Assembly: GCA_946414095.1 (NCBI GenBank)
Contig: CAMKNB010000007.1
Coordinates: 1-49,420, forward strand
Origin: an uncultured Mycoplasmatota bacterium
Lineage (GTDB): Bacteria > Bacillota_I > Bacilli_A > RF39 > UBA660
Length of the DNA stretch: 49,420 nt
Direction of reading: 5' to 3'
Position 1 is the first letter of the stretch. The number at the start of each line of letters is the position of its first letter. Below the pieces are notes generated by a model, which saw only the letters and a program-made list of their open reading frames with translations, was not told the DNA's origin and did no database searches. Shown here piece after piece: positions 13,923-36,046 of this stretch. The position numbers and the translations under genes were made by a program.

Positions 13923-14696
13923 ATGGCAAAAAAAGATGTAGTAGTTAAAGCTAATAAAGTAAGAAATTGGCATAAGCTTGGTAAATTCATTAGGCTAGCC
14001 TTATTAATACTTCTATTATTGCTTATAATTATTTATATTGTATTGAAAGTGCTTTTTAATGATGGTAGTTTTATAGTCACTCTTGATAGAAATGATATGC
14101 TGTATAGTGGGCTGGCTATGTATGAGACATTAAATGATCCAACACCAAAGCGAAGGCTTAAGGCAGAAGAGTTACAATTTATGGATAATATATCGATAAC
14201 TTGGCTGCCTGAAAATATTACTGAAGGTGAAGGTTCACACAATGGTAAAAACTATATTGCATACTCGTTTTATATGGAAAATCAAGGAGATGCCGTACTT
14301 AATTATTGGTACAATGTCTTTATGGATGATGTTATTAAGAATGCAGATGAAGCGCTGAGAATCATGATTATTATTAATGATGAGGCTACTGTGTATGCTA
14401 AAGGAAATAGCTTAAATGGTGAAGCTGAACCTGTATATTATGTTAATAACAAAATTAAAAAGAAATCTATTGAAAAAGACGAATATACAACAAAATTTAG
14501 AAACGACAAAGATGGGACTATTATTTTAGGGCAAAGAAAGGATATGAAAGCTGGAGATTTAGATAAGATAACTGTTGTTATTTGGATTGAAGGTGATGAT
14601 CCTGAATGCACAAACGCTCTTATTGGTGGTCATGTGAGATTACATATGAAACTTATAGAAGAGCATACAGAAGATACTATTAAAGAATTGGAGTGA
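13923..14696 (+). CDS. Signal-anchored TasA/camelysin-like surface protein with WIEG-x-DPEC motif
   Basis: A 257-residue protein with a strong Shine-Dalgarno (TGGAGGAG). Residues 1-23 are basic and 24-44 form a long Leu/Ile-rich signal anchor. The outer domain has alternating strands and ends with VVIWIEGDDPECTNALIGG followed by LHMKL. The next gene has the counterpart MWVEGQDVDCENSASGA at the same relative position, so the two are distant paralogues. Similar C-termini occur in TasA/camelysin-like exported proteins of Bacillota. It is the first gene of the 22-kb surface locus. The following gene starts 5 bases after the stop and its Shine-Dalgarno lies inside this gene's end. The exact role, subunit or fibre base, is unknown. 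Confidence 0.72.
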   Translation: MAKKDVVVKANKVRNWHKLGKFIRLALLILLLLLIIIYIVLKVLFNDGSFIVTLDRNDMLYSGLAMYETLNDPTPKRRLKAEELQFMDNISITWLPENITEGEGSHNGKNYIAYSFYMENQGDAVLNYWYNVFMDDVIKNADEALRIMIIINDEATVYAKGNSLNGEAEPVYYVNNKIKKKSIEKDEYTTKFRNDKDGTIILGQRKDMKAGDLDKITVVIWIEGDDPECTNALIGGHVRLHMKLIEEHTEDTIKELE

Positions 14697-14701
14697 GTTT
14701 T

Positions 14702-21900: not shown

Positions 21901-24900
21901 AAGGAACAGTTGGTGGCAATACAACAGTAACTATTAATGATACAACAGTAAGTGGTAATGTATTTGCTGCAGGAAATGGTGCAACAGCAGCTGTTACCGG
22001 TAATTCAACTATTACAGTAGATGGTTCAACAATATCATCTTCATTATATGGTGGAGGAAATGAAGGAACAGTTGGTGGAAACACAACAGTAACTATAAAT
22101 GATACAACAGTAAGTGGTAATGTATTTGCTGCAGGAAATGGTGCAGCTGCAACTGTGACAGGTAATTCAATTGCTACAGTAAAAGGTTCAACAATATCAT
22201 CTTCTATATATGGAGGAGGAAATGAAGGAACAGTTGGCGGCAATACAGATGTAATTATAAATAATACAAATGTAAACGGTAGTGCTTATGCTGGAGGAAA
22301 TGGTGCAACAGCAACAGTTAGTGGAAATACGAGCATAACAGTTGGTGGAACTAGTATTATTGGTACTCCTTCTTGTACAGTACTTAGTCAATGTTCAGTA
22401 TTTGGAGGAGGAAATGCTGCAATAACTGGTTCAGAACTTGTAAACAATTCTTTAGCAAGTGTTAAGATAGCTGGAGCAACAGTTTATGGAAATGTATACG
22501 GAGGAGCTAATACTTCTAAAGTATATGGGCGAACAGATGTTAATATTGGAGCTGAAGTAGCAGTAAATGAAACGGTAACAAGAGGTAATGTTTCAATAAA
22601 AGGAACTGTATTCGGTGGAGGTGAAGCAAATGCTTCTGGATCTGATGAATACGACTGGACATTTGTAAGTGTTACTAATGGAATAGATGTTAATATTAAT
22701 GGAGCTAATTATACAACATTTGAAATATTAGGATCTATATTTGGTAGTGGTAATGCATCTACAACAACTGGTGTAAGTGAAGTTACAATAAAGAATTATG
22801 GTACATTTACTGCTCCAAAGAGAAATGTATCAATTCAAAGAACTGATTATTTAAAACTAGACAATTCTGCAATTGTATTAGAGGGGGCAACCGATAGAGA
22901 AAATGAATATTCTGATGTATTATTTACTTTATCAAGAATAAATAAATTAGATTTAACTAATAATTCAACATTATTCCTAGAAACAGGAGCTAACTTATTA
23001 GAAGAGTTTAATAGTCTTACTTCAACTGGAGCAAAAGCTCAAGTATCAATTAATGAAAATACTAAGACTGTTACTAAAAATGTTGATAATAGAGTTTATA
23101 TGTTCATTGATAAAAAGTTAAATATTGCCAAAGACCAAAGTATAACTGATTATGGTGAAGTAAATGGAATGACATTCTTTGGAATGTATAAATATAATTC
23201 TAATGGAGATATAAATGTAGGAATTTATAATGATTATGCATATGATGCTACTCTTAATTGGGGAGATGTTTTTGATAATGTTAGTTCATATGTGCTTGGT
23301 CTTCATAAACCAAATCATGACATTGAAGTTGATGGTTTCTATACTAACTATATAGTTGAAGAAACCGGCAAAAACAAAATAGACTATATTACTCCAACAC
23401 CTCCAACTGGACCATTATATATGTGGACAATTGGTGAAGGAGTAATTGAATATGAAATAGACTTATCAGCATCAAAATATTCAACATTAGGTACAGCTGA
23501 ATTATCTTTAATTGACTTTACACATCCAAATACAACATTTGAAATATTAGGATTTGATTATAGTGAACTTGATAGTAGTGTTCATTTAGTTCCAAAAACA
23601 AGTATTAAAAAAATTGCTGATACAGAAACTGAAGCTGATACAATTATGGGACTTACAATGGAAACTAGTAATATTGGTTGGTTAGTTAATGGTAATACTA
23701 CTTTCTTAACTCATGTTGCTAATCCAGAAGATGCTGTAGTTGGTACTGAGAGTTATGTAGGTGGTAATAATGCATCATCACCAACATTGTTATTCAATTT
23801 ACACCATTCTAAAAATATAAGTTCAACTGGTAATTTAGGTAAAGTAAGGATACAATTAACATCAATTAGACAAATAGATGCTTTAACAAAAGAAACAAAG
23901 AGATTAATTATAACAGTAAATTTAAGTAAAGCGTTGATTAGTACAGTTAATTATGAAGGAGCAATGACAGCAGGACGTAAATATGAATTATTTGCATCAA
24001 CTGCAACAAATATAACATCTTCTTCATCAATCAGTGTATATTACTCATTATTCAATAGTGGTGAAAGCATTTATAGAACAGGTTATCATAGAGCACTTTT
24101 CTCTAATTATGTATTTCCATTAAATACAAAGATAACTATGATTGATTATAGTGCAGATAACCCAGAATACTATTATCATGTAATTAATCAAAATGATGTT
24201 AATACAGCAACTGCGCAAATGCAAAGTGATAATGAAGCATCATATAATATATCGATGTTTGAAGTAATGGGTGCTGAAAATAGTGGGGTATATTATGATG
24301 ATGTGGTTAAAAATACAGCATATTATAATAGCACTGCTGAATATTGTAATGAAGAATTTATATTTATAATTGATTTTGGAGATACAAATATAACAGCTGA
24401 CTCAATTGGAAATCAATTGTTATTTGGTATAAGAGATACAAATGAAGAAACAATATATGGAGTACTTGGAAATCAATATTCGGTATTAACATATAACATT
24501 TATGCTAATAAAGATGCTATAATAGATATGGATGGTACATTAAGTAGTAACAAAATATATAATGGTGAATCAGTAATTGCAGACTTGACAATAGATTATA
24601 CTCAAGAAATGGTTGGTTCTACTGTTATATATGATACACACTATTTTGATTCAAAATTGGGTATTAAAATATCTCTTATTAATTCAGAAGGTGAAGTTGT
24701 TACAGGTACTACATTGTTAGGTTTATATTATACAATTGATGGTGTTAGATATGACCCTAGTATAGATGGAACAACAAGAATTAAGATTGCAGACAAAGTG
24801 GATAGTGCAGAAAAATGGGTAATTATTAATACTGGTACATCTACTATTGCATCTGGTAACTATACTTTAAGATTTGAATCATTTGGTTCTCCTGATGGAA

Positions 24901-25355
24901 TATATTATGGTTTAGAATCTAGTGATACAAAAGATTTTGCAATAGAAATTGTTAATGAAATATATGGACTTGATGTTAATACTTCAGCTGAGGAAATGAT
25001 TATTGATTCATTAACTGGTAATAATGCAAACAATCAAAATACAATTGTATACAACATTGATTACAACTCTGGACTTACAAATCCAAATATAAGATTTAAA
25101 ATGTATAGAAGAAGTTATGAAAATATTGATGATACTAATTATATTTTAGTAGATGCTCAAGATTATTTTGATAATGCATTCTTACCTAGTCCAAATGCAA
25201 AAGAATATAGAATTGTAACAAATCCAGTTGAACATAATGAATATACATTTACATTAAATGAAAATTTAGTAACTGGAACATATAAAATGGAATTTATACT
25301 TTATGATGATATGGCTCCAATAGGAAGCGTAGAAAAATATATAATTATTAAATAG
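15924..25355 (+). CDS. Giant (3143 aa) beta-solenoid surface protein
   Basis: A signal anchor (about residues 14-33) leads to GSSSDPYIINNGSELAFFFTVIN and DGKGYSIFNFKLS, a GLUG/parallel-beta-helix type start. Residues about 165-315 are an acidic Glu/Asn/Thr-rich spacer. Around 596-650 a segment (GKTFNGWVTD..., NIYASWTNG) resembles the InlB/Listeria-Bacteroides repeat. From about 1090 to 2290 there are roughly three dozen (V/L)(Y/F)GGGN-type turns spaced 20-30 residues apart, i.e. a Gly/Asn/Thr beta-solenoid. Residues 1592-1903 are two identical 156-residue units, and three 54-residue near-repeats follow. The last 850 residues are non-repetitive beta domains. There is no LPxTG or C-terminal anchor, so attachment would be by the N-terminal helix or by association. 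It is likely an adhesin or fibre scaffold, co-transcribed with the next two genes. Confidence 0.82.
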   Translation: MFQKILDNFKKKKFLVLAVLLFFVVNIFVLYTTFSEKTTSIIWDGTIAKKFNKGTGSSSDPYIINNGSELAFFFTVINSEDSSEYFNKFYELNNNIDLNGYDFSFANTKTFSGNFDGKGYSIFNFKLSKYYLDEEGKVASISLFDSLYSARIQNINIHDVTIVVNEKDVLNKNLTKATISDEEGTNVETLETTNQDDSITEKNTQEETKNEDESNTNNETKENDPIIKDDNNSSKEEIITDSKTDDNNKITSEEDPILNDKITEEEKNAEDGTQSEEKSNLEEENSTSEENNTLEENTEEETQSGEDIVVENKVEKIEVSFLAKKVEQSVIQNLNLNNIKIDFTGKEENLTSSLFILNDISNNDFNNININGSSSANNTAVLIRNYSDANYKNIIYMSNGLDLIFNQKINKDNAFEYSINENKLKFENDIPVKAIIELLNSKSNLNWKFENNTFRIQNEGIDETTPKKKVAAKKSVRSAPSAHKSGTEGSIVYVNDYESDANYYEGLNYTHSTNGAMPTTTKKDIYNDSNLVYTELHYYARNYDNTLVGAISNSTDESENQIVYYKIYEVNDNGTSSNKNDDYVEIELIDNPFQKKPTGKTFNGWVTDYVGAEITLDRSIYTRYIKIPITYTGTTPDNINANIYASWTNGIHITTTNITNLSNTNLRAYGYTAVTDIETVYDTVSVNGLYTRRTVNFWSDYPDNAVDSTGDPLTGGCYDWGGCTCYVPASGNSVNGTTYYQLTNGSMVQYTIPSHQELTGQLSVGDSAAGYYRRVNLPSGTPLKGYYDTTGNMYTSGTASSGTTYYDLIQFYDENGNMEVASAEIYYYLTTRDTNIVRINSDVSGRWGTGVVRPFTLTAIDNGTNNLNRYTWSIQNTIVNAYGDLRIEDIMVYGAVINTTGTSPTGNTNSQLYGNYHNVKVGRGVIQDTSTRTTFTNIAGGNNSTGTQGSSSSPLEYRLIIESGMLNTASSSTIPVSATRTLYLNPVTIYGCDYDRVKEDNEKLKVSYTVASVWSGSNYSTHNYDVAFKTIVKSGSFGTSKYNFATGMYVSGRGYASTYAASSVIVEGGYIYNLNGGPSPKENTKSINTIYIYMKGGSVDVLVGGAGQSQTYGNRIVQVTGGIVNYSVFGGSNGVTGSDGSDNTNGKLDGDSYVYIGGNATIGNTKLDANAIETVSQVEAGSVFGNGNGNTSSKTIGTVNNSNIIIDGSATINKNVYGGGNYGAAGQNGTGKSYDLNIIIHDGEIKGSVYGGGNNAGAGTITSNDRNNNTANINITMDGGKVSGSVYGGSCAKGVINGNTNVNIISGTVYTDVYGGGEGGYQDNNNPGTYVTKNVNVTIGNSSTGPNINGKVYGGSAFGTVNEGEVSSTANSYDVNVTVNKGTILGSVFGGAKGSSSFTPNVNGNVNVTINGGTIPNVFGGCDEAGEPLGDVVVTINGGTVTNAYGGGNKTSVGNTSIYLEGGTVTTLYGGSNQAGTVDESHVYIDGGVVGTVFGGNNEGGTCTQSNVTLNGGTINGIVYGGGNLVDTGSTNVSINNIGNTLSAVYGGGNQAGATSTNITLNSKSSPNNINITSVYGGSNQLGNVDSSTIVMNKGTVTNLYGGNNAGGQTSTTNITVNNGTVTTLYGGGNQAISGTSNVTQTGGTISTMFGGGNQAAMSGDTNITVNGGSVTTALYGGGNEGAIAGDTNVLITNMSGTLPSLFGGGNQAGATNTNITLGDNTSGNINITNVYGGSNQLGDVTKSTIEMNKGTVTNLYGGNNAGGQTSTTNITVNNGTVTTLYGGGNQAISGTSNVTQTGGTISTMFGGGNQAAMSGDTNITVNGGSVTTALYGGGNEGAIAGDTNVLITNMSGTLPSLFGGGNQAGATNTNITLGDNTSGNINITNVYGGSNQLGDVTKSTIEMNKGTVTNLYGGNNAGGTTSITDVDILGGSVDNVYGGGNQAHVGSTNVEVTNATAGSIYGGGNAANVTGSVVLSVNNSTVSNNVYGGGNQGTVGGNTTVTINDTTVSGNVFAAGNGATAAVTGNSTITVDGSTISSSLYGGGNEGTVGGNTTVTINDTTVSGNVFAAGNGAAATVTGNSIATVKGSTISSSIYGGGNEGTVGGNTDVIINNTNVNGSAYAGGNGATATVSGNTSITVGGTSIIGTPSCTVLSQCSVFGGGNAAITGSELVNNSLASVKIAGATVYGNVYGGANTSKVYGRTDVNIGAEVAVNETVTRGNVSIKGTVFGGGEANASGSDEYDWTFVSVTNGIDVNINGANYTTFEILGSIFGSGNASTTTGVSEVTIKNYGTFTAPKRNVSIQRTDYLKLDNSAIVLEGATDRENEYSDVLFTLSRINKLDLTNNSTLFLETGANLLEEFNSLTSTGAKAQVSINENTKTVTKNVDNRVYMFIDKKLNIAKDQSITDYGEVNGMTFFGMYKYNSNGDINVGIYNDYAYDATLNWGDVFDNVSSYVLGLHKPNHDIEVDGFYTNYIVEETGKNKIDYITPTPPTGPLYMWTIGEGVIEYEIDLSASKYSTLGTAELSLIDFTHPNTTFEILGFDYSELDSSVHLVPKTSIKKIADTETEADTIMGLTMETSNIGWLVNGNTTFLTHVANPEDAVVGTESYVGGNNASSPTLLFNLHHSKNISSTGNLGKVRIQLTSIRQIDALTKETKRLIITVNLSKALISTVNYEGAMTAGRKYELFASTATNITSSSSISVYYSLFNSGESIYRTGYHRALFSNYVFPLNTKITMIDYSADNPEYYYHVINQNDVNTATAQMQSDNEASYNISMFEVMGAENSGVYYDDVVKNTAYYNSTAEYCNEEFIFIIDFGDTNITADSIGNQLLFGIRDTNEETIYGVLGNQYSVLTYNIYANKDAIIDMDGTLSSNKIYNGESVIADLTIDYTQEMVGSTVIYDTHYFDSKLGIKISLINSEGEVVTGTTLLGLYYTIDGVRYDPSIDGTTRIKIADKVDSAEKWVIINTGTSTIASGNYTLRFESFGSPDGIYYGLESSDTKDFAIEIVNEIYGLDVNTSAEEMIIDSLTGNNANNQNTIVYNIDYNSGLTNPNIRFKMYRRSYENIDDTNYILVDAQDYFDNAFLPSPNAKEYRIVTNPVEHNEYTFTLNENLVTGTYKMEFILYDDMAPIGSVEKYIIIK
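20697..21683 (+). repeat. Exact 468-bp tandem duplication inside the giant surface gene
   Basis: Bases 20697-21164 and 21165-21632 are identical as far as I can compare by eye, and identity continues into a third partial copy to 21683. Each unit is 156 codons, so the frame is kept. Identity includes synonymous positions, whereas neighbouring solenoid turns differ, pointing to a recent duplication or gene conversion. Confidence 0.9.
21891..22340 (+). repeat. Imperfect 162-bp tandem repeats inside the giant surface gene
   Basis: Three units begin at 21891, 22053 and 22215, each encoding about 54 residues opening with GGGN(Q/E)GTVGGNT. The first two are very alike; the third is more diverged and fades after about 22340. 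They differ at synonymous sites, so they are older than the 468-bp duplication. Confidence 0.85.
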
Positions 25356-25368
25356 GAGGGATGATAAA

Positions 25369-25470
25369 ATGATAGGATTAAGTAATAAAGATTTATTAGA
25401 AATATATGATATTCTTAAGAAATTTGTTAAGTCTTTAGAAAGCAGAAAAGAGGAAGAAAATAATGATTGA
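25369..25470 (+). CDS. Small 33-residue protein between the giant gene and the next gene
   Basis: The ATG at 25369 is 9 bases after a strong AGGAGGG (25353-25359) that overlaps the stop of the giant gene. The predicted peptide, MIGLSNKDLLEIYDILKKF and a charged tail, is one amphipathic helix with no signal. Its TGA lies 5 bases past the ATG of the next gene (8-base overlap), the classic arrangement for translational coupling. The strong ribosome site belongs to this frame; the next gene has no comparable site of its own. It may be a real small protein that binds the adjacent 501-residue protein, or only a leader that feeds ribosomes to it. Confidence 0.6.
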   Translation: MIGLSNKDLLEIYDILKKFVKSLESRKEEENND

Positions 25471-26968
25471 AAAATTAAATTCTGAAATAGAAAAGGTTAA
25501 TGCTAATTTGGACATCCTTCCTACTAATAATCAAAAGAACAGAAAAAAGTTTAATGATTATTTAGATGAATGCATAGGTAAATATAAACCTATGCTTGAA
25601 GAAGCTGAAAGCATTATTAAATCTAGATATGGTGAAGTATTAAGTAAGTTTAAAAATTTAACATATCAATTAAATAATGTAGAAGTTGATTATAATACAT
25701 TAAAATTAACAGATAGTAGAGCATTTTGTAGTGAAAAGATGAATTTGGATTATTTATTTTATAAATTAAATAATTCTAATGATAATAATTTAGCAGAAGT
25801 AAATAACATTATTAGTGAAATAATAAATTCATTTAAAGCAGCAGGTATTATCTTAACTCCTAATGATTTTAAGCATTCTGAAGCAGTAAATACATATATG
25901 AAGGCTTTATTTAATAATAGTGATAATATTCAAGATGTTTTTAATGAAATTTACTGGAAAAATTCTGATTTAATAATCCAAATAGAACTAAATATTAAAT
26001 ATTTATATTATAAACATGTAAATAAATTGATAGAGTTCTTTAATGCTAAATATTCAGCATTTGACTTTGATAAATTTATAACATCTCATAGAGCTCTAGT
26101 TTATAATAATGAATTGATAAAACATAAAAGTGTAAAATATATATATGATTTATTTATGGACAAAACATTAGATGTTGATGATTTTATTATTGAAAGTAGG
26201 GTTCAAGATTTAATATCTAGCTTACTTCTTGATCCATCATCAAACAGAAACTATGAGAACTTGCTTAAATTAAAAGCATCATTAAATGAATATAAAGGTT
26301 ATGTTAAGTATGAATATATTTTTAATAGTTTCAAAGAATTATTTGCTCATAAAGAAGAATATAAAGATTTGTTTTCAAATAAATTAAAGGAAATATCAAA
26401 GAAAGAAAAGAACTTATTTGCTATTAATAAAAAGATTAATAAGACAGGATTATTTAAACTTAATAAAGTTAAGTTAGCTGATGCAAAAGCTGAAAGAAAT
26501 AAAGTTATTAGTGAATTAGTTAATGATTATCAAGAACTAGATGATTTAAAAATTAAAGAAACAATAAGCAAATATGTAACTAATGATACAAATTATTATG
26601 ATATATTAGTTTTTACTAGTTATAATTTCTTATATTTTGTTCAATTATTAAAAAGTGATAATGAAGAATTGACATTAGAAAATATTAATGAAAAATTAGG
26701 TGAATTAAAAGAATTTATATATAGGAGTAAACCTGAAATATTAAAAAGTATGCCTATAGGTGAGGAAAAAGATGTACCTAAGGTTATTAGTGAAAAATAC
26801 ATAATGAATAGTATAATAGTCGATGAAGAAAAAATAAGGAATAATCAAGTTGATCAAATTTTAGAAAGTGTTGATAAATTGTTAATCTATTTTGATGTTT
26901 ATACACTTATGATTAATTTAAAAGATATTAAATTTCTATTAGAAGTTCCAAGTGAGCTTAAGAAATGA
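25463..26968 (+). CDS. Cytosolic helical protein of the surface locus, unknown family
   Basis: A 501-residue protein without signal peptide or membrane helix. It is Lys/Glu/Asn-rich and overwhelmingly helical, with coiled-coil stretches near the N-terminus (EKLNSEIEKVNANL) and in the middle (KLKEISKKEKNLFAINKKINK, LADAKAERNKVISELVNDYQEL). I recognise no catalytic motif. It overlaps the 33-residue gene by 8 bases and is in the giant-gene operon, so it probably acts inside the cell on production or localisation of the surface protein, or links it to other cytosolic members of this locus. A new promoter follows, so it closes the operon. Confidence 0.75.
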   Translation: MIEKLNSEIEKVNANLDILPTNNQKNRKKFNDYLDECIGKYKPMLEEAESIIKSRYGEVLSKFKNLTYQLNNVEVDYNTLKLTDSRAFCSEKMNLDYLFYKLNNSNDNNLAEVNNIISEIINSFKAAGIILTPNDFKHSEAVNTYMKALFNNSDNIQDVFNEIYWKNSDLIIQIELNIKYLYYKHVNKLIEFFNAKYSAFDFDKFITSHRALVYNNELIKHKSVKYIYDLFMDKTLDVDDFIIESRVQDLISSLLLDPSSNRNYENLLKLKASLNEYKGYVKYEYIFNSFKELFAHKEEYKDLFSNKLKEISKKEKNLFAINKKINKTGLFKLNKVKLADAKAERNKVISELVNDYQELDDLKIKETISKYVTNDTNYYDILVFTSYNFLYFVQLLKSDNEELTLENINEKLGELKEFIYRSKPEILKSMPIGEEKDVPKVISEKYIMNSIIVDEEKIRNNQVDQILESVDKLLIYFDVYTLMINLKDIKFLLEVPSELKK

Positions 26969-27031: not shown

Positions 27032-27568
27032 ATGAAAAAGATAGTAAATATTTTTAAAGATATACTAATATCTGTATGGGTTCTAGCAGCAATAATAGCT
27101 ACGATATGTTTAATATCATATAATGATTATAGTGTTAGTGAAATAGGTAACTATTCAATTATAATTGTTGATAGTGATAGATTAGAACCAGATTTTAAAG
27201 AAAATGATTTGGTTATTACTAAAAAAGTATCAGAAAACAAATATAATGTAGGGGATAAAGTATTCTTTTATATATCTAATCCATCTGATTATGTTTTTAT
27301 TAATTATGGTGAAATAACTGATAAAAATGAAGCAGAATATGCTGAAGATTCATATTATTTTGGAGAAAGCGTAGTTGTACCATATTCAAAGATGATAGGA
27401 CATGCTAATGGAAGTATTGTTTATCATCATTGGGGATTAGTATTATCTATATTTGAAAGTAGATGGGGATTTATGTTCTTAGTAATATTCCCAACAATCT
27501 TTGCAATTGTATATGAAATATATTCAATTGTTGAAGAAGCAAAAAGAGAAAAAAATGAAGAACAATAA
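27032..27568 (+). CDS. SipW-type signal peptidase-like protein lacking the catalytic serine and histidine
   Basis: A 178-residue protein with an N-terminal membrane helix (12-31), an outer S26-type fold and a C-terminal helix (about 148-168). The segment IIIVDSDRLEPDFKENDLVI aligns with the usual SxSMxP-x6-GD box of archaeal/ER-type signal peptidases, but the catalytic Ser-Met is Arg50-Leu51. The TH(R/K) box carrying the catalytic histidine is also missing: the equivalent strand reads YVFINYGEIT. The 'GDKVFFY' strand and the conserved 'ESRWGF' before the last helix are kept. It is therefore probably a pseudo-enzyme, such as a chaperone or docking factor for TasA-like preproteins. The TasA-like gene downstream overlaps it by 14 bases. 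Confidence 0.78.
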   Translation: MKKIVNIFKDILISVWVLAAIIATICLISYNDYSVSEIGNYSIIIVDSDRLEPDFKENDLVITKKVSENKYNVGDKVFFYISNPSDYVFINYGEITDKNEAEYAEDSYYFGESVVVPYSKMIGHANGSIVYHHWGLVLSIFESRWGFMFLVIFPTIFAIVYEIYSIVEEAKREKNEEQ

Positions 27569-28175
27569 GCTTAGAATTATTCTTTGGTTAATTGTTATAA
27601 TACTAATATTAATTACATATACTATTTTCTCAAAAACATTAGCTTTATTTGAAAGTAATGCCACTGGAGAAGCTAATAATGATATAGGTAAGTGGATTAT
27701 CAAAATTAATAATAATCTAATAAGTAGTGGACAAACAGAAGATATTGTAATTAATAATTTTGTCTATGATACTGTTTCCACTGTTGAAAGTGGTTACATT
27801 GCGCCTGGAAGTAGTGCATACTTTGATTTAGTTTTTGATGCAACTGATTGCGATGTTGCAGTTAGATATGATATTACATTTAATTTTGATTCAATGAGTT
27901 ACTCAGATAATATTTCAATGAGTGTTGAAGAACTTGGAAGTAATGATACTGTTCTCACTGATGAAAGTACTTATTCTGGTATAATTGATTTAAGTTCAAT
28001 AGAATCAGGTACATTAGTAACTATTAGAGTTCATGTTACATGGAATGATATAGAAGATTATGATGAAGATGATACAGCACTTGGAACAGAATATGGAAGT
28101 AAATTAACAGTACCAATTAGTGTTCATGCTGAGCAATATTTAGGTGAAACTTTGGTACCATATGTAGGGGAATAA
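27555..28175 (+). CDS. TasA-like exported protein 1
   Basis: The ATG at 27555 overlaps the upstream gene by 14 bases; an earlier in-frame start would overlap far more and add non-signal residues. Residues 1-28 form a signal segment whose end SKTLALFESNATG has the SipW-type look. The mature domain begins with DIGKWIIKINN and includes a strand YIAPGSSAYFDLVFDA, then RVHVTWND, and ends in a strand VPISVHAEQ. The same order is seen in the - strand gene at 35471 (ARWNILVN, FHVRWND, VNVIQ), so the two are paralogues. It is a likely extracellular subunit processed by the peptidase encoded 16 bases downstream. Confidence 0.78.
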   Translation: MKNNKLRIILWLIVIILILITYTIFSKTLALFESNATGEANNDIGKWIIKINNNLISSGQTEDIVINNFVYDTVSTVESGYIAPGSSAYFDLVFDATDCDVAVRYDITFNFDSMSYSDNISMSVEELGSNDTVLTDESTYSGIIDLSSIESGTLVTIRVHVTWNDIEDYDEDDTALGTEYGSKLTVPISVHAEQYLGETLVPYVGE

Positions 28176-28191: not shown

Positions 28192-28929
28192 GTGAAAGGG
28201 CTTAAAAAAGTATTAAAAGTAATAATTGATATTTTAACAACACTTGTATTATTGGTACTTTTAATAATCATTTTTGCTAGAGTTAAGACTATGTTTAGTG
28301 ATAAAGATTATTTTGAAGTATTTGGATACTCTGTTTTTAGTGTAGCTACTGGAAGTATGGAACCAGTTATAAAACAAAATGATGTAATACTAGTTAAATC
28401 TCAGAGTGAGTACGATGTTGAAGATATAGTTACATTTAAGAGTGATAATGCTTATATAACACATAGAATCATTAATAAAATTGGTGACTCTATTGTTACT
28501 AAAGGGGATGCCAATAATGCTAAAGATGTTGCTATTACAAAAAATGATATAGTAGGAAAAGTAATACATATATATTCTAACTTAGGCGTTTGGCAAAAAG
28601 TATTTACTACACCTAAAATAATAATAATGATATTTGTTACCTTAATACTATTTGATTTTGCTTTTTCATATAAAGGCATTAAAAATAAACAAAACATTAA
28701 GATGGTAGAGAAAATAAAAGATATTTCTTTAAAACAAGTTAATGAAGTTTCTGAAGATCAAAAACTTACGGATTTAGAAATAGTAGAATTATGCAAAAAA
28801 ACCGATGCTGTTAAAAATGGAGAAGAAGTTAAATTTGATAAAAAAGAAAAAGAGTTTTTAAATTATACTATAAGGTTAGATTTAAATGAATTACAAAAGC
28901 AAATAGATAGTAAAATGAATGGGGAGTAA
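28192..28929 (+). CDS. SipW-type signal peptidase, intact, with extra cytosolic tail
   Basis: GTG start with GAGGA 9 bases upstream. A membrane helix (10-29) is followed by the S26B catalytic domain. Box B ATGSMEP gives the catalytic Ser55, YITHRI gives His91, and KGDANNAKD supplies the acidic residue near Asp106. A second helix spans about 139-158. The residues match the ER/archaeal-type Ser-His peptidases to which SipW belongs. It should cleave the signals of neighbouring TasA-like proteins. Unlike typical SipW, it has about 85 further charged residues predicted inside the cell (DLEIVELCKKTDAV...). The next gene starts 1 base after its stop. Confidence 0.87.
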   Translation: MKGLKKVLKVIIDILTTLVLLVLLIIIFARVKTMFSDKDYFEVFGYSVFSVATGSMEPVIKQNDVILVKSQSEYDVEDIVTFKSDNAYITHRIINKIGDSIVTKGDANNAKDVAITKNDIVGKVIHIYSNLGVWQKVFTTPKIIIMIFVTLILFDFAFSYKGIKNKQNIKMVEKIKDISLKQVNEVSEDQKLTDLEIVELCKKTDAVKNGEEVKFDKKEKEFLNYTIRLDLNELQKQIDSKMNGE

Positions 28930-28930
28930 A

Positions 28931-29533
28931 ATGAAAGAAAGTTTATTTAAAACTTTTGATAAAAAGAGATTAATGAGTGTTATGAAATTAACATTTATCT
29001 TTGTTGCACTAGTAATTATTACAAATATTGCTAATAATACAAGTGCGAGATATGAATCTCAAGCTAACGTTAGTGCAGAAGCTAATGTTGCTTTTTTCGT
29101 AGTTGATCAGGGAACATATGAAAATACTATTTCTTTAAGTGGACTTACTCCTAGTTTACAGCCAACTTATTATACATTTTATGTTAAAAATTATGATGAT
29201 GATAATCATAGAGCTAATGTAGATCTTGAATATCAAATAAAATTTGAAACTACAACAAATTTACCATTAACTTATGAAATAGTGAGAAATGAAACATTTG
29301 ATACTGGTTATACAAATATAATTGAAAGTACAGATGTAAGGCAAGATGAATATGATGTTTTCTATAAAGTATTTAGTAATGATGATACATATAGTTTTAG
29401 TCATAATAGAAATGAAATTGATGAATATACTTTAAAAGTAATATTTCCAGAAAGTTATAAAGATTATCCTGATTTGTATCAAGGTGGAGTTGAATTATTC
29501 TCTGTAATTATTGATGCTCATCAAGTTGCATAA
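28931..29533 (+). CDS. TasA-like exported protein 2
   Basis: The ATG at 28931 has GGGGAG 5 bases upstream. A signal segment ends in NNTSARYESQANVSAEANVAFFVVDQ, the ARY variant of the SipW-type signal. The mature domain is a 170-residue beta protein with FYVKNYDDDNHRANVDLEYQI, then TTTNLPLTYEIV, YTLKVIFPESYKD and a final strand IIDAHQ. This arrangement recurs in exported proteins beside SipW genes in Bacillota. It has a close partner in the signal peptidase gene ending 1 base upstream. A promoter for the next gene overlaps its 3' end. Confidence 0.78.
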   Translation: MKESLFKTFDKKRLMSVMKLTFIFVALVIITNIANNTSARYESQANVSAEANVAFFVVDQGTYENTISLSGLTPSLQPTYYTFYVKNYDDDNHRANVDLEYQIKFETTTNLPLTYEIVRNETFDTGYTNIIESTDVRQDEYDVFYKVFSNDDTYSFSHNRNEIDEYTLKVIFPESYKDYPDLYQGGVELFSVIIDAHQVA

Positions 29534-29575: not shown

Positions 29576-30505
29576 ATGAAGAGAAGAAAGCTAATCATAA
29601 TTATAGCTGCTATACTACTATTAATGCCTCTTGGTGTAACATTTAGTAGGTATGTAATTAAAAGTATTAGAAATTATATTATGGAAGCAAATAATTTCTT
29701 CTTTAATAGCGACAAATTGGTCGATGGAGGAATTACCTATGGTATTAATAACTGGGGTGGTGCTAGTAACATCGATATTCAATTTGAACTTAACAATCAT
29801 AAAAACAATTTGTTAACTAGTGCTTCTGATATTACTTATACTTTAACTGCAACACCATCTGATCCTTCAAGTATTAGATGTAACTTAGATTATAATAGTG
29901 GAGTAATATATAAAGCAGAAAAAACAGATAGTTTATCTTTAACAGTTGTCCCACTTAGAGTTTTTAATGATAATGAGTCAGTTAGTGTAACTGTGGAAGC
30001 TGTATCAAGCAGTCCTTATGTAAAAACTTTGAGCGCAACGTTTGTAATTACTGTTGGTAGGAGAGGTATAGATTATGCCATTACTGATAGTGTAGGTTCA
30101 CCATACTTTATATTCTCTATAACTAATGCATTAGACACATATAAAGTTACAAGTGGATTTACTGCAACTGTCAATGGGCAATCTCACACATATTCAGTAA
30201 ATGATACTCTTACAACAGAAGAATACTTACAATTAAGTAGTGAAAATAAATCAAAATGTGCATCAGCAATAATAACTTTGACTTTTAATCCATCACAGGT
30301 TGTTATGGATACAACAAGTGATATATTAAAGCGTGCTACTTATCAAACTACTACATATAATGGGGTTGCATATATTAGTTCTATTACGTTTAACATAGAT
30401 GTTTTAACTAGTGAAGAGATAAGGTTCTATAAGAGAAATGTTTCTAACAATTATACTTATCCTATAACAAATAATACATCTATTGTTACGTTTAGTGCTT
30501 CATAG
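29576..30505 (+). CDS. Exported beta-sandwich protein with SipW-like signal
   Basis: A 309-residue protein. Residues 1-22 are a signal segment ending in GVTFSRYVIKSIRNY, resembling the other signals of the locus. The remainder is beta-rich, with Ig-like pieces such as TLTATPSDPSSIRC followed by SVTVEAVSSSPYVKTLSATFVI, a 'Ca-domain plus cadherin-like linker' pattern often seen in pilus or adhesin accessory proteins. There is no anchor at the C-terminus. It has its own promoter and is followed by a strong ribosome site 11 bases before the next gene. It may be a minor or tip component of the fibre; role inferred only from context. Confidence 0.72.
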   Translation: MKRRKLIIIIAAILLLMPLGVTFSRYVIKSIRNYIMEANNFFFNSDKLVDGGITYGINNWGGASNIDIQFELNNHKNNLLTSASDITYTLTATPSDPSSIRCNLDYNSGVIYKAEKTDSLSLTVVPLRVFNDNESVSVTVEAVSSSPYVKTLSATFVITVGRRGIDYAITDSVGSPYFIFSITNALDTYKVTSGFTATVNGQSHTYSVNDTLTTEEYLQLSSENKSKCASAIITLTFNPSQVVMDTTSDILKRATYQTTTYNGVAYISSITFNIDVLTSEEIRFYKRNVSNNYTYPITNNTSIVTFSAS

Positions 30506-30515
30506 GAGGAGAGGT

Positions 30516-31493
30516 ATGGATTGTATATTTAGTGAATATGTTAAATTCGTTGAAAATTTTTTAATTAATTACTATAAACTATTATTATCTACCAAATATG
30601 AAAAAGGATTAGTAAAACCATTTATAGATAAATATATTGATGTAAGATATTATAACGAATCTGTTGTAAAAGAAAATAATTTTACAGATAGGCTTAATAA
30701 AGAACTTAATAATATAGCAAAAGAATTATTAGAAGAAAATGAAGGTAAAGAAGATAAAATCAAAAATATATTTGCATTATTTAGTTATGTTTTATTTATT
30801 GATGGTTGTATTCATTATTCAGATTTAAATCTATTATTAAAAACTTTATTTTCTGATAAAAATATTACTTTAGAATATTCAGATGCAACTAAAAAAGAAC
30901 TTAATAGTATTATAAGAGAATATATAAATAAAAAAGTATCATTTTTTAAGCTGTTTTCTGCGGAAGAGTTCTATTTGAAAGGAAGAAAATATACAAATAA
31001 TATATATCATATTGATTTGGGCCAAAATTGTAATATATCAAAATTATATAGTGATTATGCAGTTGAAAAAGCTTATAATTCTGATGTTGTTTTTGAAAAT
31101 AGAACATATTTAACAATTCTATTATGTTCAGCTAAAATATTGTCAGAAGTTATTTCTTTAGATTTTAGTAAAACATATATAGTAGATTTTCCAGTTTCAT
31201 TATTAGATAAGCCTAAAAAGATTATTAGATTTTTAAAGGCATTAGATGATGATATGTTAAGAACAAAGATATGTTTAAAGTTTATGTATAAAGATTATAA
31301 AAAAAATAAAAATGAAATTAAAAGTCTAATTAATCAAGATTATAGTATATGTTTAGAATTAGATAAAACTTATGATGTTGATTTTGATGATTTATTTTTA
31401 TTCTCATATGTTATTGTAAATAAAAAGTATAAGTATTATGATATTATTATTAATAATAAGGAAGATGTTAATACTAATATTTTAGTAGAGTGA
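30516..31493 (+). CDS. Cytosolic protein of the surface locus, unknown family
   Basis: The start at 30516 is set by AGGAGG about 6 bases upstream; upstream in-frame codons overlap the previous gene. The 325-residue product has no signal or membrane helix. It is Lys/Asn/Tyr-rich, with a helical N-terminal half and an alternating strand/helix C-terminal half (KICLKFMYKDY, YSICLELDKTYDVDF, LFLFSYVIVNKKYKYYDII). No catalytic motif is recognised. It lies 8 bases before the McrB-like ATPase gene and is surely co-transcribed with it, so it is a candidate regulatory or adaptor subunit of that ATPase. Confidence 0.75.
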   Translation: MDCIFSEYVKFVENFLINYYKLLLSTKYEKGLVKPFIDKYIDVRYYNESVVKENNFTDRLNKELNNIAKELLEENEGKEDKIKNIFALFSYVLFIDGCIHYSDLNLLLKTLFSDKNITLEYSDATKKELNSIIREYINKKVSFFKLFSAEEFYLKGRKYTNNIYHIDLGQNCNISKLYSDYAVEKAYNSDVVFENRTYLTILLCSAKILSEVISLDFSKTYIVDFPVSLLDKPKKIIRFLKALDDDMLRTKICLKFMYKDYKKNKNEIKSLINQDYSICLELDKTYDVDFDDLFLFSYVIVNKKYKYYDIIINNKEDVNTNILVE

Positions 31494-31501
31494 GGTGTAC
31501 C

Positions 31502-33040
31502 ATGAATACGTTCTTAAAATATTTTTATGAAGTATTAAGCCAATTTTTTTCTGGTTTTATTACTATTTTTAAAGGATTTATAGAAGGATTCAAACAAATA
31601 TTTAATTTTAAGGCATATATAGCACTTGCAAAATCATATAAAGGAGAATTTAATGTAGGAGAATGGGTGCTTTTTGGTGTATCTGTATTTTTTATGTTAG
31701 CATTTATAGCATTAATCGTATTCTTAGTATTATTTATTGTTAGAAAATATGTTAGATTTAGAAAAACAATTGTAGAACAAGAATCAATGCTAGAAGAAAT
31801 ATCTGAATTAAATGGTAGAGTAGCAACTCTATTAAAAGAAAAAGAAGACATTCTTGCTATGAAAGTGTCACAACTTGGACTAAGACCTGATGAATCAGCT
31901 GTTGTTGAAGGTGTTACTAATGCTGATGGAAGTCCTGAAGAAGAACTTGACACTAACACTGCAATTAGATTTGCTAAATTGCATGATGTTGATTTAAAAT
32001 ATGCAGATTATAAGAAACTAGATTACGGCAATAATTTTAGTTTATCTGATTTGGTTGAAATGTTTAGAAACTTTGCTGCTAGTCAGTTAAGACTTTATTA
32101 TAAGACTGAAATGATTAGATTATTTATTGCAGCACTTGCTAGTACAAAACTTGTAATTCTACAAGGTATCTCTGGTACAGGTAAAACTTCTCTTGCTTAT
32201 GCTTGGGGAAAATTTTTAAAGCACGACTCATGTGTAGCATCTGTTCAACCATCATGGCGTGATAGATCAGAGTTATTTGGATATTTTAACGAATTTACAA
32301 AGAAATTTAATGAAACTGATATTTTAAAAGAACTATATGAAGCAGGATATACTGATGATATTCATACAGTAATCCTAGATGAAATGAATATATCTCGTGT
32401 CGAATATTATTTTGCAGAGATGTTATCTATTCTAGAAATGCCTAACCAAGACGAATGGATAGTTGAAGTTGTTTCATCTGGTTGGCCAAGCGATCCAAAG
32501 CATTTAAAAAATGGTAAATTAATAATTCCACCTAACTGTTGGTATATTGGTACAATCAATAATGATGACTCAACATTTATGGTAACAGATAAAGTTTACG
32601 ACCGTGCTATGCCAATAGATATTAATGATAAAGGACAAGTTTTTGAACCAACGTCTGTTCAAGCACAAGATATTAATTACTCTTATGTTAATAACTTATT
32701 CCAAGAAGCAATAGCAAATAATCCTATGAGTGAAGAAGTGCTTGCTAAGATTGAAGAAATGGATGATTATGTAATACAACATTTCAGAATTGCTTTTGGT
32801 AACAGAATTGTTGCTCACATGAAAAAATTTGTTCCAGTTTATATCGCATGTGGTGGAGATGAAGTCGATGGAGTAGATTACTTTATTGCAAAGAAAATAC
32901 TTCGTAAATTTGAACAATTAAATATCTCATTTATTAGAGATGAAATAGATGGATTTGTAGATTTCCTAAATAAAACATTTGGGGAAAATAAAATGAAAGA
33001 ATGTATAGAATACGTACTTAGATTGAAGAAGATATCATAA
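31502..33040 (+). CDS. Membrane-tethered McrB-type AAA+ ATPase
   Basis: The ATG at 31502 follows GAGGTG by 4 bases; the GTG at 31490 would overlap the previous gene. Residues 1-57 are amphipathic, 58-80 form a transmembrane helix and 85-125 a coiled coil. From about 185 to 500 lies an AAA+ domain with Walker A GISGTGKTS (222-230), Walker B VILDEMN (290-296) and WYIGTINNDDSTF then VTDKVYDRA (348-369). This sensor and arginine-finger signature is characteristic of the McrB branch (MoxR/McrB AAA+). McrB is normally a soluble GTPase paired with an McrC nuclease; here the family module is anchored in the membrane and partnered with a DUF2357 protein 19 bases downstream. The substrate is unknown. 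Confidence 0.87.
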   Translation: MNTFLKYFYEVLSQFFSGFITIFKGFIEGFKQIFNFKAYIALAKSYKGEFNVGEWVLFGVSVFFMLAFIALIVFLVLFIVRKYVRFRKTIVEQESMLEEISELNGRVATLLKEKEDILAMKVSQLGLRPDESAVVEGVTNADGSPEEELDTNTAIRFAKLHDVDLKYADYKKLDYGNNFSLSDLVEMFRNFAASQLRLYYKTEMIRLFIAALASTKLVILQGISGTGKTSLAYAWGKFLKHDSCVASVQPSWRDRSELFGYFNEFTKKFNETDILKELYEAGYTDDIHTVILDEMNISRVEYYFAEMLSILEMPNQDEWIVEVVSSGWPSDPKHLKNGKLIIPPNCWYIGTINNDDSTFMVTDKVYDRAMPIDINDKGQVFEPTSVQAQDINYSYVNNLFQEAIANNPMSEEVLAKIEEMDDYVIQHFRIAFGNRIVAHMKKFVPVYIACGGDEVDGVDYFIAKKILRKFEQLNISFIRDEIDGFVDFLNKTFGENKMKECIEYVLRLKKIS

Positions 33041-33059
33041 GAATAGAAAGGGAGCTAGT

Positions 33060-34187
33060 ATGCAAGATCAATTAAAGATTTTTGAATTATATAATAATAC
33101 ACGTAAAAAACAAATTACTAAATTTAATTCATCATTAAAATCAAAATATACACTTACTACTAATTATCAAAAAGTAGAAGCTGATTTTGCATGGTTAGAT
33201 ATGATGGAAGATACTATAATGTATCTAGATAATATTCTTAGAAATCCTAATCGATTCATTATAAATGAAGAAGAAATTGTTAAAGTTGAACAGGCCAAAA
33301 GAATAACCGTTGATAGTATTAAACATTTAGCAAAACATACAAGTTTTATTCAAGAAATCGATGAAAATGGAGATGTTAAACCATCTAAAGTGTTAAATAT
33401 TAATAAAGATGAAAGTTATAATACATATGAAAATAGATTTATTTATACCTTAATAAATAATATGAGAACTTTTATTGAAATAAAGGAAAAACAGTACATT
33501 GGATCATCATTTTTAAAAGATGATAAAAAATGTGAATATCAAGCTGTTACTAAATTAGGAGCTCAAAAAGTTAATATTAATATGGTGATTACTGCAAATG
33601 TTGACTTTTCAAAAGAAGATGGTGTTAGAAATGGAATGAGTGTTACCCAAAGAATGGAAAAACTAAAACTTAGAATTTCTGATTTAACTAATACACCTGT
33701 ATATGTATCTCTTGCTAAAGAACATGTTGCCAAAGTAATACCACCAATTAAAAAAACAAACTTAATACTTAAGAATACTAACTTTCAATATGCTATGAAA
33801 TTATGGGATTTTTTACAGTCTTATATAGCTGATGACAATAAAATGGTTAAAGATAAAAAAACATTAGAGGAAGACTTAAATATTAAGCAAATGTTAGATG
33901 ATACATTTTTACTTGATTATTTAGCAATAAATACAGTTAATCAAGATTATTCTGAAATTGATGATGATTCTAAAGCAGAATTAGTAGAAGATTTAACTAA
34001 TAAAATGATAGATAAGATTGTAGAATTGAATGCCGATTTACCACTTGAAAAAATTAGTGAGGTAATTGGAGATAAGATTGCAATTATTAAGAATAAGAAA
34101 GAAGCCTCTCTTGCTGAACTAGAGCGTAAGTTCAATGAAAGACTTCAAGCATTTACAGAAAGAATTACAGAATTTAGTTTTAGGTGA
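33060..34187 (+). CDS. DUF2357-like partner of the McrB-type ATPase, no nuclease domain seen
   Basis: A 375-residue soluble protein. Its middle carries YNTYENRFIYTLINNM (about 120-135), the 'N(T)xENRF' motif that marks DUF2357 proteins. An N-terminal helical part precedes it and a charged helical tail (about 310-375, LAELERKFNERLQAF) ends it. DUF2357 proteins usually sit next to McrB-type ATPases and often carry a C-terminal PD-(D/E)xK nuclease. Here I see neither the PD...(D/E)xK pattern nor room for it. It should act as the adaptor that couples the ATPase to its target. It is 19 bases after the ATPase gene and 4 bases before a signal peptidase gene. Confidence 0.75.
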   Translation: MQDQLKIFELYNNTRKKQITKFNSSLKSKYTLTTNYQKVEADFAWLDMMEDTIMYLDNILRNPNRFIINEEEIVKVEQAKRITVDSIKHLAKHTSFIQEIDENGDVKPSKVLNINKDESYNTYENRFIYTLINNMRTFIEIKEKQYIGSSFLKDDKKCEYQAVTKLGAQKVNINMVITANVDFSKEDGVRNGMSVTQRMEKLKLRISDLTNTPVYVSLAKEHVAKVIPPIKKTNLILKNTNFQYAMKLWDFLQSYIADDNKMVKDKKTLEEDLNIKQMLDDTFLLDYLAINTVNQDYSEIDDDSKAELVEDLTNKMIDKIVELNADLPLEKISEVIGDKIAIIKNKKEASLAELERKFNERLQAFTERITEFSFR

Positions 34188-34191
34188 CATT

Positions 34192-34776
34192 ATGAAGAAA
34201 TTAAAAAAGTTAAAAGAAAAAATTGAAAATAATATAATATTTAGAATAATTAAGTGGATACTATATATAGTTTTGGTACTTATACTAATTGTTATTATAG
34301 TACAGAAGGTTTCAAACAATAATATATCTATTGGTGGATTTAGAATGTTTATGATTGTTTCTGAATCTATGAAGGGTGAGTATGACATAGGAGATATATT
34401 AATATCAAAGAGTGTTCCAGCCAATGAGATTAATGTTGGTGATAATATTACTTATTTGGGAGAAAAAGATTCTTTGAAGGGTTTAATAATAACGCATAAA
34501 GTAGTAGAAAAAGATGAAAGAGATAATGAAGTATTTTTTACTACTAAAGGTAATGCAAATTTAGTTAAAGATCCTGAAATAAGTTATAGTCAAGTATATG
34601 GTAAAGTTGTTTATAAATTCGTACTATTAAGTATGCTTGCAAAATTAATGAATAATCAATTAGCTTATTTCATTATATTTATAATAGTTGCTATGATTAT
34701 TTCTATAGAAGTTATGTCTACTATGTTCCACACCGAAGAAGATGAAGAAGAGGGTGATGGTGATAGAGGAGACTAA
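34192..34776 (+). CDS. SipW-type signal peptidase with variant catalytic boxes
   Basis: The ATG at 34192 with TAGGTGA upstream is preferred; an in-frame ATG 57 bases earlier would lie inside the DUF2357 gene. It has a basic N-terminus, a membrane helix (about 18-38), an outer domain and a second helix (about 160-180). Box B reads VSESMKGEYDIGD, keeping catalytic Ser59 but replacing the usual Pro. Box D ITHKV supplies His102. Box E is KGNANLVKD, where the usual Asp is Asn121, with Asp127 nearby. It is probably active but of altered specificity. It overlaps the next TasA-like gene, its likely substrate, by about 17 bases. Confidence 0.8.
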   Translation: MKKLKKLKEKIENNIIFRIIKWILYIVLVLILIVIIVQKVSNNNISIGGFRMFMIVSESMKGEYDIGDILISKSVPANEINVGDNITYLGEKDSLKGLIITHKVVEKDERDNEVFFTTKGNANLVKDPEISYSQVYGKVVYKFVLLSMLAKLMNNQLAYFIIFIIVAMIISIEVMSTMFHTEEDEEEGDGDRGD

Positions 34777-35416
34777 GAAAAAAAAGAAAAGCTTATGTTT
34801 ATTAATATTAAAGAAGATTAAAATAAGTCATATTCTTATTTTAATAATATTACTTGCTGGAAATAGTTATGCATGGTTTATATATATTAATAATGTAAGT
34901 AATAGTGTAGATGTTCATGTAAGAGCATGGAAAATAGATTTTGATGATGGAACTACTCCTGTAACAGAAGTTGTGGACGTTGTAGCAGATAATGTTTATC
35001 CTGGAATGGTAACTTTTGAAAAACCAATTAATGCCCATAATTATAGTGAAGTTTCTGCAAATGTTAGTTTTTCAATATTAGAAGCTACAATTATGGGAAC
35101 TACTTATGTTACGCAAGAAGGAAGAACAGATGCTGGCCAAGCAGTTCAATCCGGTGATTTAACAAGTGCAGCACTACAACAACAATTAGAAAATGATTAT
35201 CCATTTACGATAAGTTTTGATCTGTCGAGTAGTACAATTCAAGCTGAAAATGGAGTAGCAACTTATACTGTTAGTATAAGTTGGCCATATGAGTCTGGAG
35301 ATGATGATGCTGATACCCTTTGGGGAACACGTGCATACGAGTTTAAGCAAGCACATCCAACTGAGTCATGTATAAGTTTAAAAGTAAAAATTTATATTAC
35401 ACAAGCTAGTTCTTAA
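34760..35416 (+). CDS. TasA-like exported protein 3
   Basis: Start choice is uncertain. GTG at 34760 has AGAGGG 5 bases upstream and overlaps the peptidase gene by 17 bases; ATG at 34742 or 34757 are alternatives in the same frame. The signal segment is very basic, then hydrophobic, ending in GNSYAWFIYINNVSN, the YAWF SipW-type signal. The mature part starts VHVRAWKIDFDDG and includes VSISWPYESGDDDADTLWG and a final strand KVKIYITQ, a recurrent TasA-like layout. It is probably matured by the adjacent peptidase. It closes the + strand operon with a hairpin terminator overlapping its stop. Confidence 0.77.
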   Translation: MIEETKKKKKSLCLLILKKIKISHILILIILLAGNSYAWFIYINNVSNSVDVHVRAWKIDFDDGTTPVTEVVDVVADNVYPGMVTFEKPINAHNYSEVSANVSFSILEATIMGTTYVTQEGRTDAGQAVQSGDLTSAALQQQLENDYPFTISFDLSSSTIQAENGVATYTVSISWPYESGDDDADTLWGTRAYEFKQAHPTESCISLKVKIYITQASS

Positions 35417-35435: not shown

Positions 35436-35472
35436 AAAAAAACTAACTTATTCATTTATTAGTTAGTTTTTT
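35436..35472. terminator. Bidirectional terminator between convergent TasA-like genes
   Basis: AAAAAACTAACT (35437-35448) pairs perfectly with AGTTAGTTTTTT (35461-35472) around a 12-base loop. The A and T runs serve both directions. Confidence 0.85.
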
Positions 35473-36046
35473 ATTGAATTTGAATTACATTAACATTAAC
35501 ATCTAATGCAGCAACACCACTATTTGCAGCTTCTGTATCGTCAGCATTATTCATTGTTTGAGTTGAAGCATTATCATTCCATCTAACATGAAATCTTATT
35601 GTTTTAGTTTTAACTTCATCATTTAATAATATATTGCCAGTTATTGAGCTATCATATGTATAATCAACTCCATCAATTGTATATTTATAAATTACTAAAT
35701 CAGATACTGTGTTATCATCACTTTTATCAAGAGAAATCGTATATGAGAAAGATACATCAGTATTTTGTCCATTTAATGTGATGTCAAAATAACCTTCAGC
35801 AGTAGGAGCAATTACGCCACTTCTTATATTAGTTGTTCCTTCGAATGTTGGGACAATAGTTTGTGAGAAATTAGAATTTTCTATTATATCTTGACTATTT
35901 ACAAGAATATTCCATCTTGCAATTGTTAAATCTGTATTAGCAGTAGCGCTACTTACATATTTAGCATATGTATCTTGCATAAAAGTAATACAATAAAATA
36001 GGGACATTAAAGCTATGAAAAATATTATTTTTCTTTTAATTTTCAT
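35471..36046 (-). CDS. TasA-like exported protein 4, on the opposite strand
   Basis: A 191-residue protein with a signal segment ending in MQDTYAKYVSSATANTD, the YAKY form of a SipW-type signal. The mature domain (IARWNILVN, then GVIAPTAEGYFDITL, IRFHVRWND, and a last strand VNVNVIQ) is a paralogue of the protein at 27555-28175. It has a good AGGAGG site 9 bases before the ATG and its own promoter. Convergent transcription with the + operon suggests separate regulation, perhaps an alternative subunit. No peptidase is encoded on this strand, so it must rely on the ones encoded nearby. Confidence 0.8.
   Translation of the reverse strand: MKIKRKIIFFIALMSLFYCITFMQDTYAKYVSSATANTDLTIARWNILVNSQDIIENSNFSQTIVPTFEGTTNIRSGVIAPTAEGYFDITLNGQNTDVSFSYTISLDKSDDNTVSDLVIYKYTIDGVDYTYDSSITGNILLNDEVKTKTIRFHVRWNDNASTQTMNNADDTEAANSGVAALDVNVNVIQIQ

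Follow-up and report, generated by a model that had tools for sequence, protein, structure and literature searches.

A membrane-anchored McrB-type NTPase and its DUF2357 partner without a recognisable nuclease in a conserved surface-protein operon of uncultured Bacilli

Introduction

McrBC machines are known as DNA-restriction systems. Why, then, does an uncultured Mycoplasmatota bacterium carry a McrB-type protein with a membrane helix inside an operon for signal peptidases and secreted proteins? The question arises from a stretch of 49,420 nucleotides (contig CAMKNB010000007.1 of assembly GCA_946414095.1, positions 1 to 49,420), which we call the window, and in particular from three adjacent genes that an initial annotation, made from the sequence alone, had placed correctly: G (30516-31493), H (31502-33040) and I (33060-34187). 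The same annotation had considered two roles for the H-I pair, a machine working at the envelope or a defence system embedded in a surface operon. If the former is right, a broader question follows, namely why SipW-type operons of gut and rumen Bacilli carry an NTPase when TasA of Bacillus subtilis is reported to use donor-strand exchange.

We compared the window with 80 contigs of other genomes (uncultured Bacilli, many of them from rumen or gut) and with whole genomes. Counts for the window's own family refer to 81 loci, and loci cut by a contig end were left out of the count concerned. All features lie on the plus strand unless stated.

H is a membrane-anchored NTPase of the McrB type

PDB profile search, PADLOC and homologue alignment place H (31502..33040; 512 amino acids counted from the ATG at 31502) among the McrB-type AAA+ NTPases of the NxD class; the profile search retrieved Escherichia coli McrB with an E value of 1.1e-6. 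Walker A (GISGTGKTS, residues 222-230, 32165..32191), the Walker B stretch with LDEMN (residues 290-296, 32369..32389) and the arginine-finger stretch DKVYDR (residues 363-368) align in 36 homologues and are kept down to 35% identity. The sensor-1 motif, which carries the NxD(D) signature, reads NNDD (residues 353-356, 32558..32569) in 81/81 loci of the window's family, and NxD(D/E) is found in other groups of H as well. The nucleotide may be ATP or GTP, because the nearest solved relatives of H are McrB GTPases; the initial annotation was right about the McrB type, while its label ATPase is unproven, and we speak of an NTPase.

All 81 family loci encode an H with one membrane helix, starting at about residue 56-69 (criterion, a 19-residue Kyte-Doolittle mean of at least 2.9); in the window, hydropathy and charge bias place it at residues 58-80 (31673..31741). 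The 20 residues after the helix contain on average 5.2 lysines and arginines, compared with 1.8 before it, and by the positive-inside rule this points to an N-out/C-in topology, in which the NTPase would lie in the cytosol and some 55 residues, an amphipathic segment among them, outside. The coiled coil was judged from the alignment of the 36 homologues; an FtsL-type NCBIfam match on residues 68-120 is weak (E 0.07, below the cut-off) and suggestive only. The membrane helix, coiled coil and intact AAA+ core that the initial annotation described in H are thus all upheld.

I is a DUF2357 protein without a recognisable nuclease

I (33060..34187; 375 amino acids, start at 33060) is a DUF2357 protein of the McrC N-terminal type. 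Pfam PF09823 matches residues 28-145 (33141..33494), including the motif NTYENRF, with an E value of 1e-11 and a score of 45 against a cut-off of 23.3. This is the sole Pfam match in I, and no nuclease family, PD-(D/E)xK included, was matched. The AF2 model is of moderate confidence (pLDDT 77.5, pTM 0.52). It contains a long beta hairpin (residues 150-185, 33507..33614), a candidate for the stalk with which McrC enters the McrB-type ring (PMC11090510), and past residue 255 it shows one strand and long helices, of which those at residues 302-373 (33963..34178) occupy the position expected for a nuclease.

The conserved block of I ends near W249 in 52 homologues, and after residue 255 these have no acidic, Lys or Gln column above 80% identity. 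Longer DUF2357-type homologues of other families (506-861 amino acids) matched no nuclease family either. Fold searches with the moderate-confidence model led to nothing useful, and the chains listed did not include McrC; we regard these searches as uninformative rather than negative. With neither a family match nor a conserved motif, we rejected a hidden nuclease. Judged by family models, homologue alignment and the predicted structure, I is without a recognisable nuclease, as the initial annotation had proposed.

The surface operon and its conservation

Two of the three peptidase homologues in the operon match the SipW/ER-type signal peptidase model TIGR02228 above its cut-off: S3 (34192..34776; E 2.5e-21), which keeps the catalytic Ser and His, and S2 (28192..28929; E 6.7e-21), in which the active residues are also kept. 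The third, S1 (27032..27568), matches below the cut-off (E 6.2e-6) and has lost the catalytic Ser and His. The relatives resemble the window in this. S3 retains Ser and His in 79/79 loci; S2, in 43 loci, has Ser in 39 and His in 40; and S1, likewise in 43 loci, keeps His in only one (lost in 42) and has serine in the Ser column in 11. The residue patterns suggest that the operon encodes active peptidases together with one conserved inactive homologue.

The other products are secreted or surface proteins. F (29576..30505), a secreted or anchored protein of 309 amino acids, is encoded directly before G, a conserved position. Three small secreted proteins belong to a family called t here (27555..28175, with a SipW-type signal; 28919..29533; 34742..35416), and a fourth small secreted protein, on the minus strand (35471..36046), is conserved in most loci. 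The wider cluster includes the secreted proteins x (13923..14696) and y (14693..15820, with a STYAWFT signal), both of which belong to protein families that occur beside H in several other bacterial families. It also includes a repeat-rich surface protein of 3143 amino acids with YGGGN repeats (15924..25355), whose family, Z, was matched in 52/111 loci, and a 501-residue protein of no known family (25463..26968; 27 loci) that often adjoins the giant protein. Relatives of the giant protein, present in about half of the loci, are very different in length, and many are cut by contig ends. A DUF4272 gene downstream (36263-37882) was dropped as a part of the operon, as it recurs in 3/111 loci only.

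The initial annotation had called the surroundings a TasA/SipW operon. The signal peptidases bear out the second half of that description; the first half found no support. TasA and TapA models of Pfam and NCBIfam found nothing above cut-off among the secreted proteins (a weak TapA match, E 0.17, was seen for one protein), and PDB searches with profiles of the operon's secreted proteins retrieved no chain of TasA. The term TasA-like draws only on context and on what kind of signal sequence the proteins have, and family models do not support it.

The gene order around H is nearly invariant. H is directly followed by I in 81/81 loci and directly preceded by G in 80/80; a SipW/ER-type signal peptidase comes next after I in 79/79, and in 75 of the 76 loci that reach that far the second gene upstream of H, before G, is F. 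Median gaps in the series F-G-H-I-S3 are 2-13 bp over the 81 loci. Farther out, small secreted proteins and a second and third peptidase homologue are conserved, often with a giant repeat protein. The operon context is therefore conserved and not due to chance, and conservation in more than 100 loci led us to reject chance or misread open reading frames as an explanation. The co-occurrence of G, H and I with SipW genes, which the initial annotation had proposed to survey, is found in nearly every locus. H itself is patchy, present in 28/100 relatives, and many relatives have SipW without H, which indicates that SipW systems can work without it.

Relation to known systems

The initial annotation had missed a published name for such systems. 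Bell et al. (2024) introduced CoCoPALM for NxD McrB-like GTPases that are fused to an FtsB-like segment, consisting of a membrane part and a coiled coil, and are encoded near signal peptidases; the group takes up one paragraph of their main text, which defers the details to a later paper and contains no TasA, GGDEF, diguanylate cyclase or cyclic di-GMP (PMC11090510). We found no later paper on CoCoPALM in the open-licence literature. H and I share with CoCoPALM the NxD McrB-like NTPase, the membrane helix with coiled coil and the signal peptidase neighbours, and I has the DUF2357 domain and helical C-terminus of the CoCoPALM partner. By its sequence features the window system appears to fit CoCoPALM on every point tested, and its class is not new. 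Beyond the published description, the window adds the inactive signal-peptidase homologue, the giant repeat surface proteins and the fixed gene order; the window and its relatives further add a fixed degenerate EAL gene and, in other families, GGDEF-EAL genes. This link of CoCoPALM to EAL/GGDEF genes of the c-di-GMP type appears to be new.

Two relatives of the pair are restriction or defence systems. With the type IV restriction system of E. coli (McrB and McrC) it shares the AAA+ core and a DUF2357-type partner; unlike that system, it has a membrane helix, NxD instead of NxxD and no nuclease, and no methylcytosine-binding domain was recognised. CoCoNuT systems share the NxD class and the coiled coils, and some of their McrC homologues have lost the nuclease; however, those without it always have a separate one, according to the authors (PMC11090510). 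Unlike CoCoNuTs, the window has surface genes and not defence genes around the pair, and Pfam found no nuclease family above cut-off, HEPN included, in 19 proteins of the cluster and its neighbourhood.

These comparisons bear on the reading that H and I are a McrBC- or CoCoNuT-type defence against phages or plasmids which lies in a surface operon by chance. Its McrBC relatives are defence systems, H has the patchy distribution noted above, and H matches the PADLOC candidate model PDC-M26A with an E value of 2.3e-34. However, ten other proteins of the window had no PADLOC match, neither I nor the operon genes tested supply the nuclease that a CoCoNuT would have, and across eight bacterial families the neighbours are surface-protein genes rather than a changing set of defence genes. 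The gene context led us to reject a defence island, since SipW-type peptidases and secreted proteins accompany the pair nearly everywhere, and we consider a defence role distinctly unlikely. Of the two roles considered in the initial annotation, the one at the envelope is likely, an inference well supported by this recurring company of G, H and I.

G is predicted to fold like a degenerate EAL domain

What is the third protein of the trio? The initial annotation had left G (30516..31493) as a 325-residue protein, and its fold and what it resembles had gone unnoticed. G is predicted to be cytosolic, with a helical N-terminal domain (residues 1-147) and an EAL-like C-terminal domain (residues 148-325, 30957..31490); the AF2 model is of high confidence (pLDDT 94, pTM 0.90). 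A Foldseek search with the C-terminal 178 residues gave EAL domains in the top ranks (best E 2.9e-3, probability 1.00), and in VIA-align all 50 of the 50 matches listed were EAL domains, the best with a Z score of 13.4 over 171 residues at 3.3 A, clearly above the best Z of 7-8 that is usual for models without a clear match.

Sequence comparison did not give a direct link between G and EAL domains. G has no Pfam match above cut-off, EAL (PF00563) included; profile comparison with EAL by hhalign was not significant (P 0.07-0.18), although the best local alignment keeps the order of EAL strands and helices. In a tentative register, taken from hhalign and the AF2 strands, G lacks the EAL, NxS, EITE and DDFG residues (those for catalysis and ligand binding: EAL, N, E, DD and K), and for this reason binding of c-di-GMP by G is doubtful. 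We take the model to predict that G folds like a degenerate EAL domain, and a shared fold is no proof of function. Among 60 relatives, no genome that lacks H yielded a G.

GGDEF-EAL genes beside H in other families

Seven further families of the class have H and I of this type together with SipW-type peptidases and the x and y secreted proteins, but without G and F. GGDEF-EAL genes lie within the H clusters of each of these seven families, which the initial annotation had also missed. Over whole genomes, at least 33 of 52 H loci have an EAL gene within 12 kb, where 3.2 would be expected if genes were evenly spread. For this H type in the seven families, the 29 genomes with SipW positions contain 42 loci, at least 32 of which have an EAL gene within 12 kb and 31 a SipW-type peptidase within 6 kb; the expectations, computed for 41 of the loci on the same assumption of even spread, are 2.5 and 0.9. 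The EAL counts are lower bounds.

Does the link belong to SipW or to H? Among the EAL matches listed, an EAL gene lies near 1/22 SipW genes located over 25 kb away from every H, whereas for SipW genes near this H type the count is at least 37/52 (Fisher p 6.5e-8, a value that overstates independence, as loci within a family are related and do not count as independent events). Other NxD membrane types of H in the same genomes have an EAL gene nearby in 0/14 cases, again among the matches listed. The EAL link therefore belongs to H and not to SipW.

In the SipW-less loci L192-L199, a gene for a protein of 419-467 amino acids directly abuts H upstream in 8/8 cases examined, and all eight proteins fall into one GGDEF-EAL-related profile with E values of 1e-62 or better. 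Several of the abutting proteins have lost EAL signature residues. L157 and L158 show the same arrangement of a GGDEF-EAL-type gene abutting H, L028 has a GGDEF-EAL gene directly upstream of H, and L161 encodes a 346-residue protein with a degenerate EAL domain (Pfam E 8e-14) 3.5 kb upstream. In the window this slot is filled by G, in which only the EAL fold is left and which the degenerate GGDEF-EAL profile of the SipW-less loci does not match. Because of the shared slot, we read G as a remote member of the GGDEF-EAL regulatory class and not as a chance match of folds.

The GGDEF-EAL neighbours might instead do no more than set the expression of biofilm-type surface operons, with no contact to the motor. 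The SipW-bearing loci of other families are compatible with this, as their EAL genes are typically 4-6 kb from H with secreted-protein genes between. Regulation of surface operons in general would nevertheless not explain why EAL genes keep company with SipW near H and hardly elsewhere, nor why an EAL-type gene abuts H in the SipW-less loci and G abuts H in the window's family. We consider this explanation unlikely.

Cyclic di-GMP genes in the genome of the window

The window's own genome, an assembly about 86% complete, encodes one GGDEF protein (L188:1-2025), a sensor with an SBP_bac_3 solute-binding domain and the variant motif DGDEF, and no protein in this assembly matched the Pfam EAL or HD-GYP families. 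The idea that this GGDEF protein is a GdpP-type c-di-AMP enzyme was dropped, as its domains are SBP_bac_3 and GGDEF. Going by these genes, c-di-GMP may still be made in the organism; it is just as likely that G is an adaptor which has stopped binding it.

The second possibility leads to a different role for the machine, in which the ring pulls out or unfolds signal-peptidase substrates that have got stuck, or membrane proteins, as a form of envelope surveillance or quality control, G is a mere structural adaptor, and c-di-GMP plays no part in the window's family. An EAL-like protein can be an adaptor, as YdiV is. The loss of the EAL signature residues from G and the lack of a recognisable c-di-GMP phosphodiesterase in its genome would fit, and the inactive signal-peptidase homologue could also act as an adaptor. 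Against it stand the strong association that other families show with GGDEF-EAL genes and the presence of a GGDEF protein in 17/17 H-positive genomes searched within the window's family, although most H-negative ones have one too. We hold surveillance to be rather unlikely.

A proposed role in building the cell surface

We favour, with a probability of about 0.6, the reading that a nuclease-free, membrane-anchored McrBC derivative of the CoCoPALM type helps to build, hold or release a surface structure processed by SipW, under the control of a protein of the c-di-GMP family. By analogy with McrB, H would form an AAA+ ring at the cytosolic side of the membrane, its N-terminal 55 or so residues outside. 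I would dock onto this ring, its beta hairpin reaching into the pore in the manner of McrC; rather than to a nuclease, it could couple the turnover of NTP to motion of its C-terminal helices. G would bind H or I and gate the motor, in the way that FimX-like degenerate GGDEF-EAL proteins gate pilus ATPases. Outside, the active signal peptidases would process the secreted proteins of the same operon, which would form fibres, and the motor would drive or anchor their assembly.

Two systems illustrate how these parts might work together. In the FimX-PilZ-PilB system (PMC8389850), the degenerate GGDEF-EAL protein FimX gates the pilus ATPase PilB; there, too, surface filaments are built by a membrane-associated NTPase ring under the control of a degenerate EAL-type protein, but the ATPase is unrelated to H, the window has no pilin machinery, and complex formation in the window is our extrapolation. 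The B. subtilis operon for TapA, SipW and TasA shares with the window a SipW/ER-type signal peptidase and secreted proteins with SipW-type signals, but the window's secreted proteins match no TasA or TapA model above cut-off. Since TasA assembles into fibres by donor-strand exchange (PMC9674648), the NTPase would be an addition to a TasA-type mechanism, perhaps for nucleation, anchoring, release or substrate handling.

If the proposed role is correct, a defence motor has been reused for building or controlling the cell surface, a large branch of it having lost the nuclease, become membrane-bound and been tied to surface operons and second-messenger proteins. CoCoPALM, a group with little description so far, would gain a regulator and a function that can be tested. 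A bolder version, which we hold only tentatively and lean against, is a further way of powering extracellular fibres in Gram-positive gut bacteria: a membrane motor derived from McrBC, with coiled coils replacing the nuclease, would be gated by a receptor of c-di-GMP, or by what such a receptor has degenerated into, and drive the assembly, anchoring or release of SipW-processed fibres.

Variants of H

Three further arrangements of H were seen in other loci. L140-L146 have a tandem H-I-H, in which a single DUF2357 protein has a membrane NxD McrB-type protein on either side; the tandem adjoins large secreted repeat proteins and has no SipW or EAL neighbours. In L147-L150, a variant of H with 610-660 amino acids and several membrane helices occurs with SipW and ABC-transporter-like genes. 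L151-L154 encode a membrane variant of about 900 amino acids and a DUF2357-type partner of 515 amino acids with no surface genes nearby, which might be a defence-type branch.
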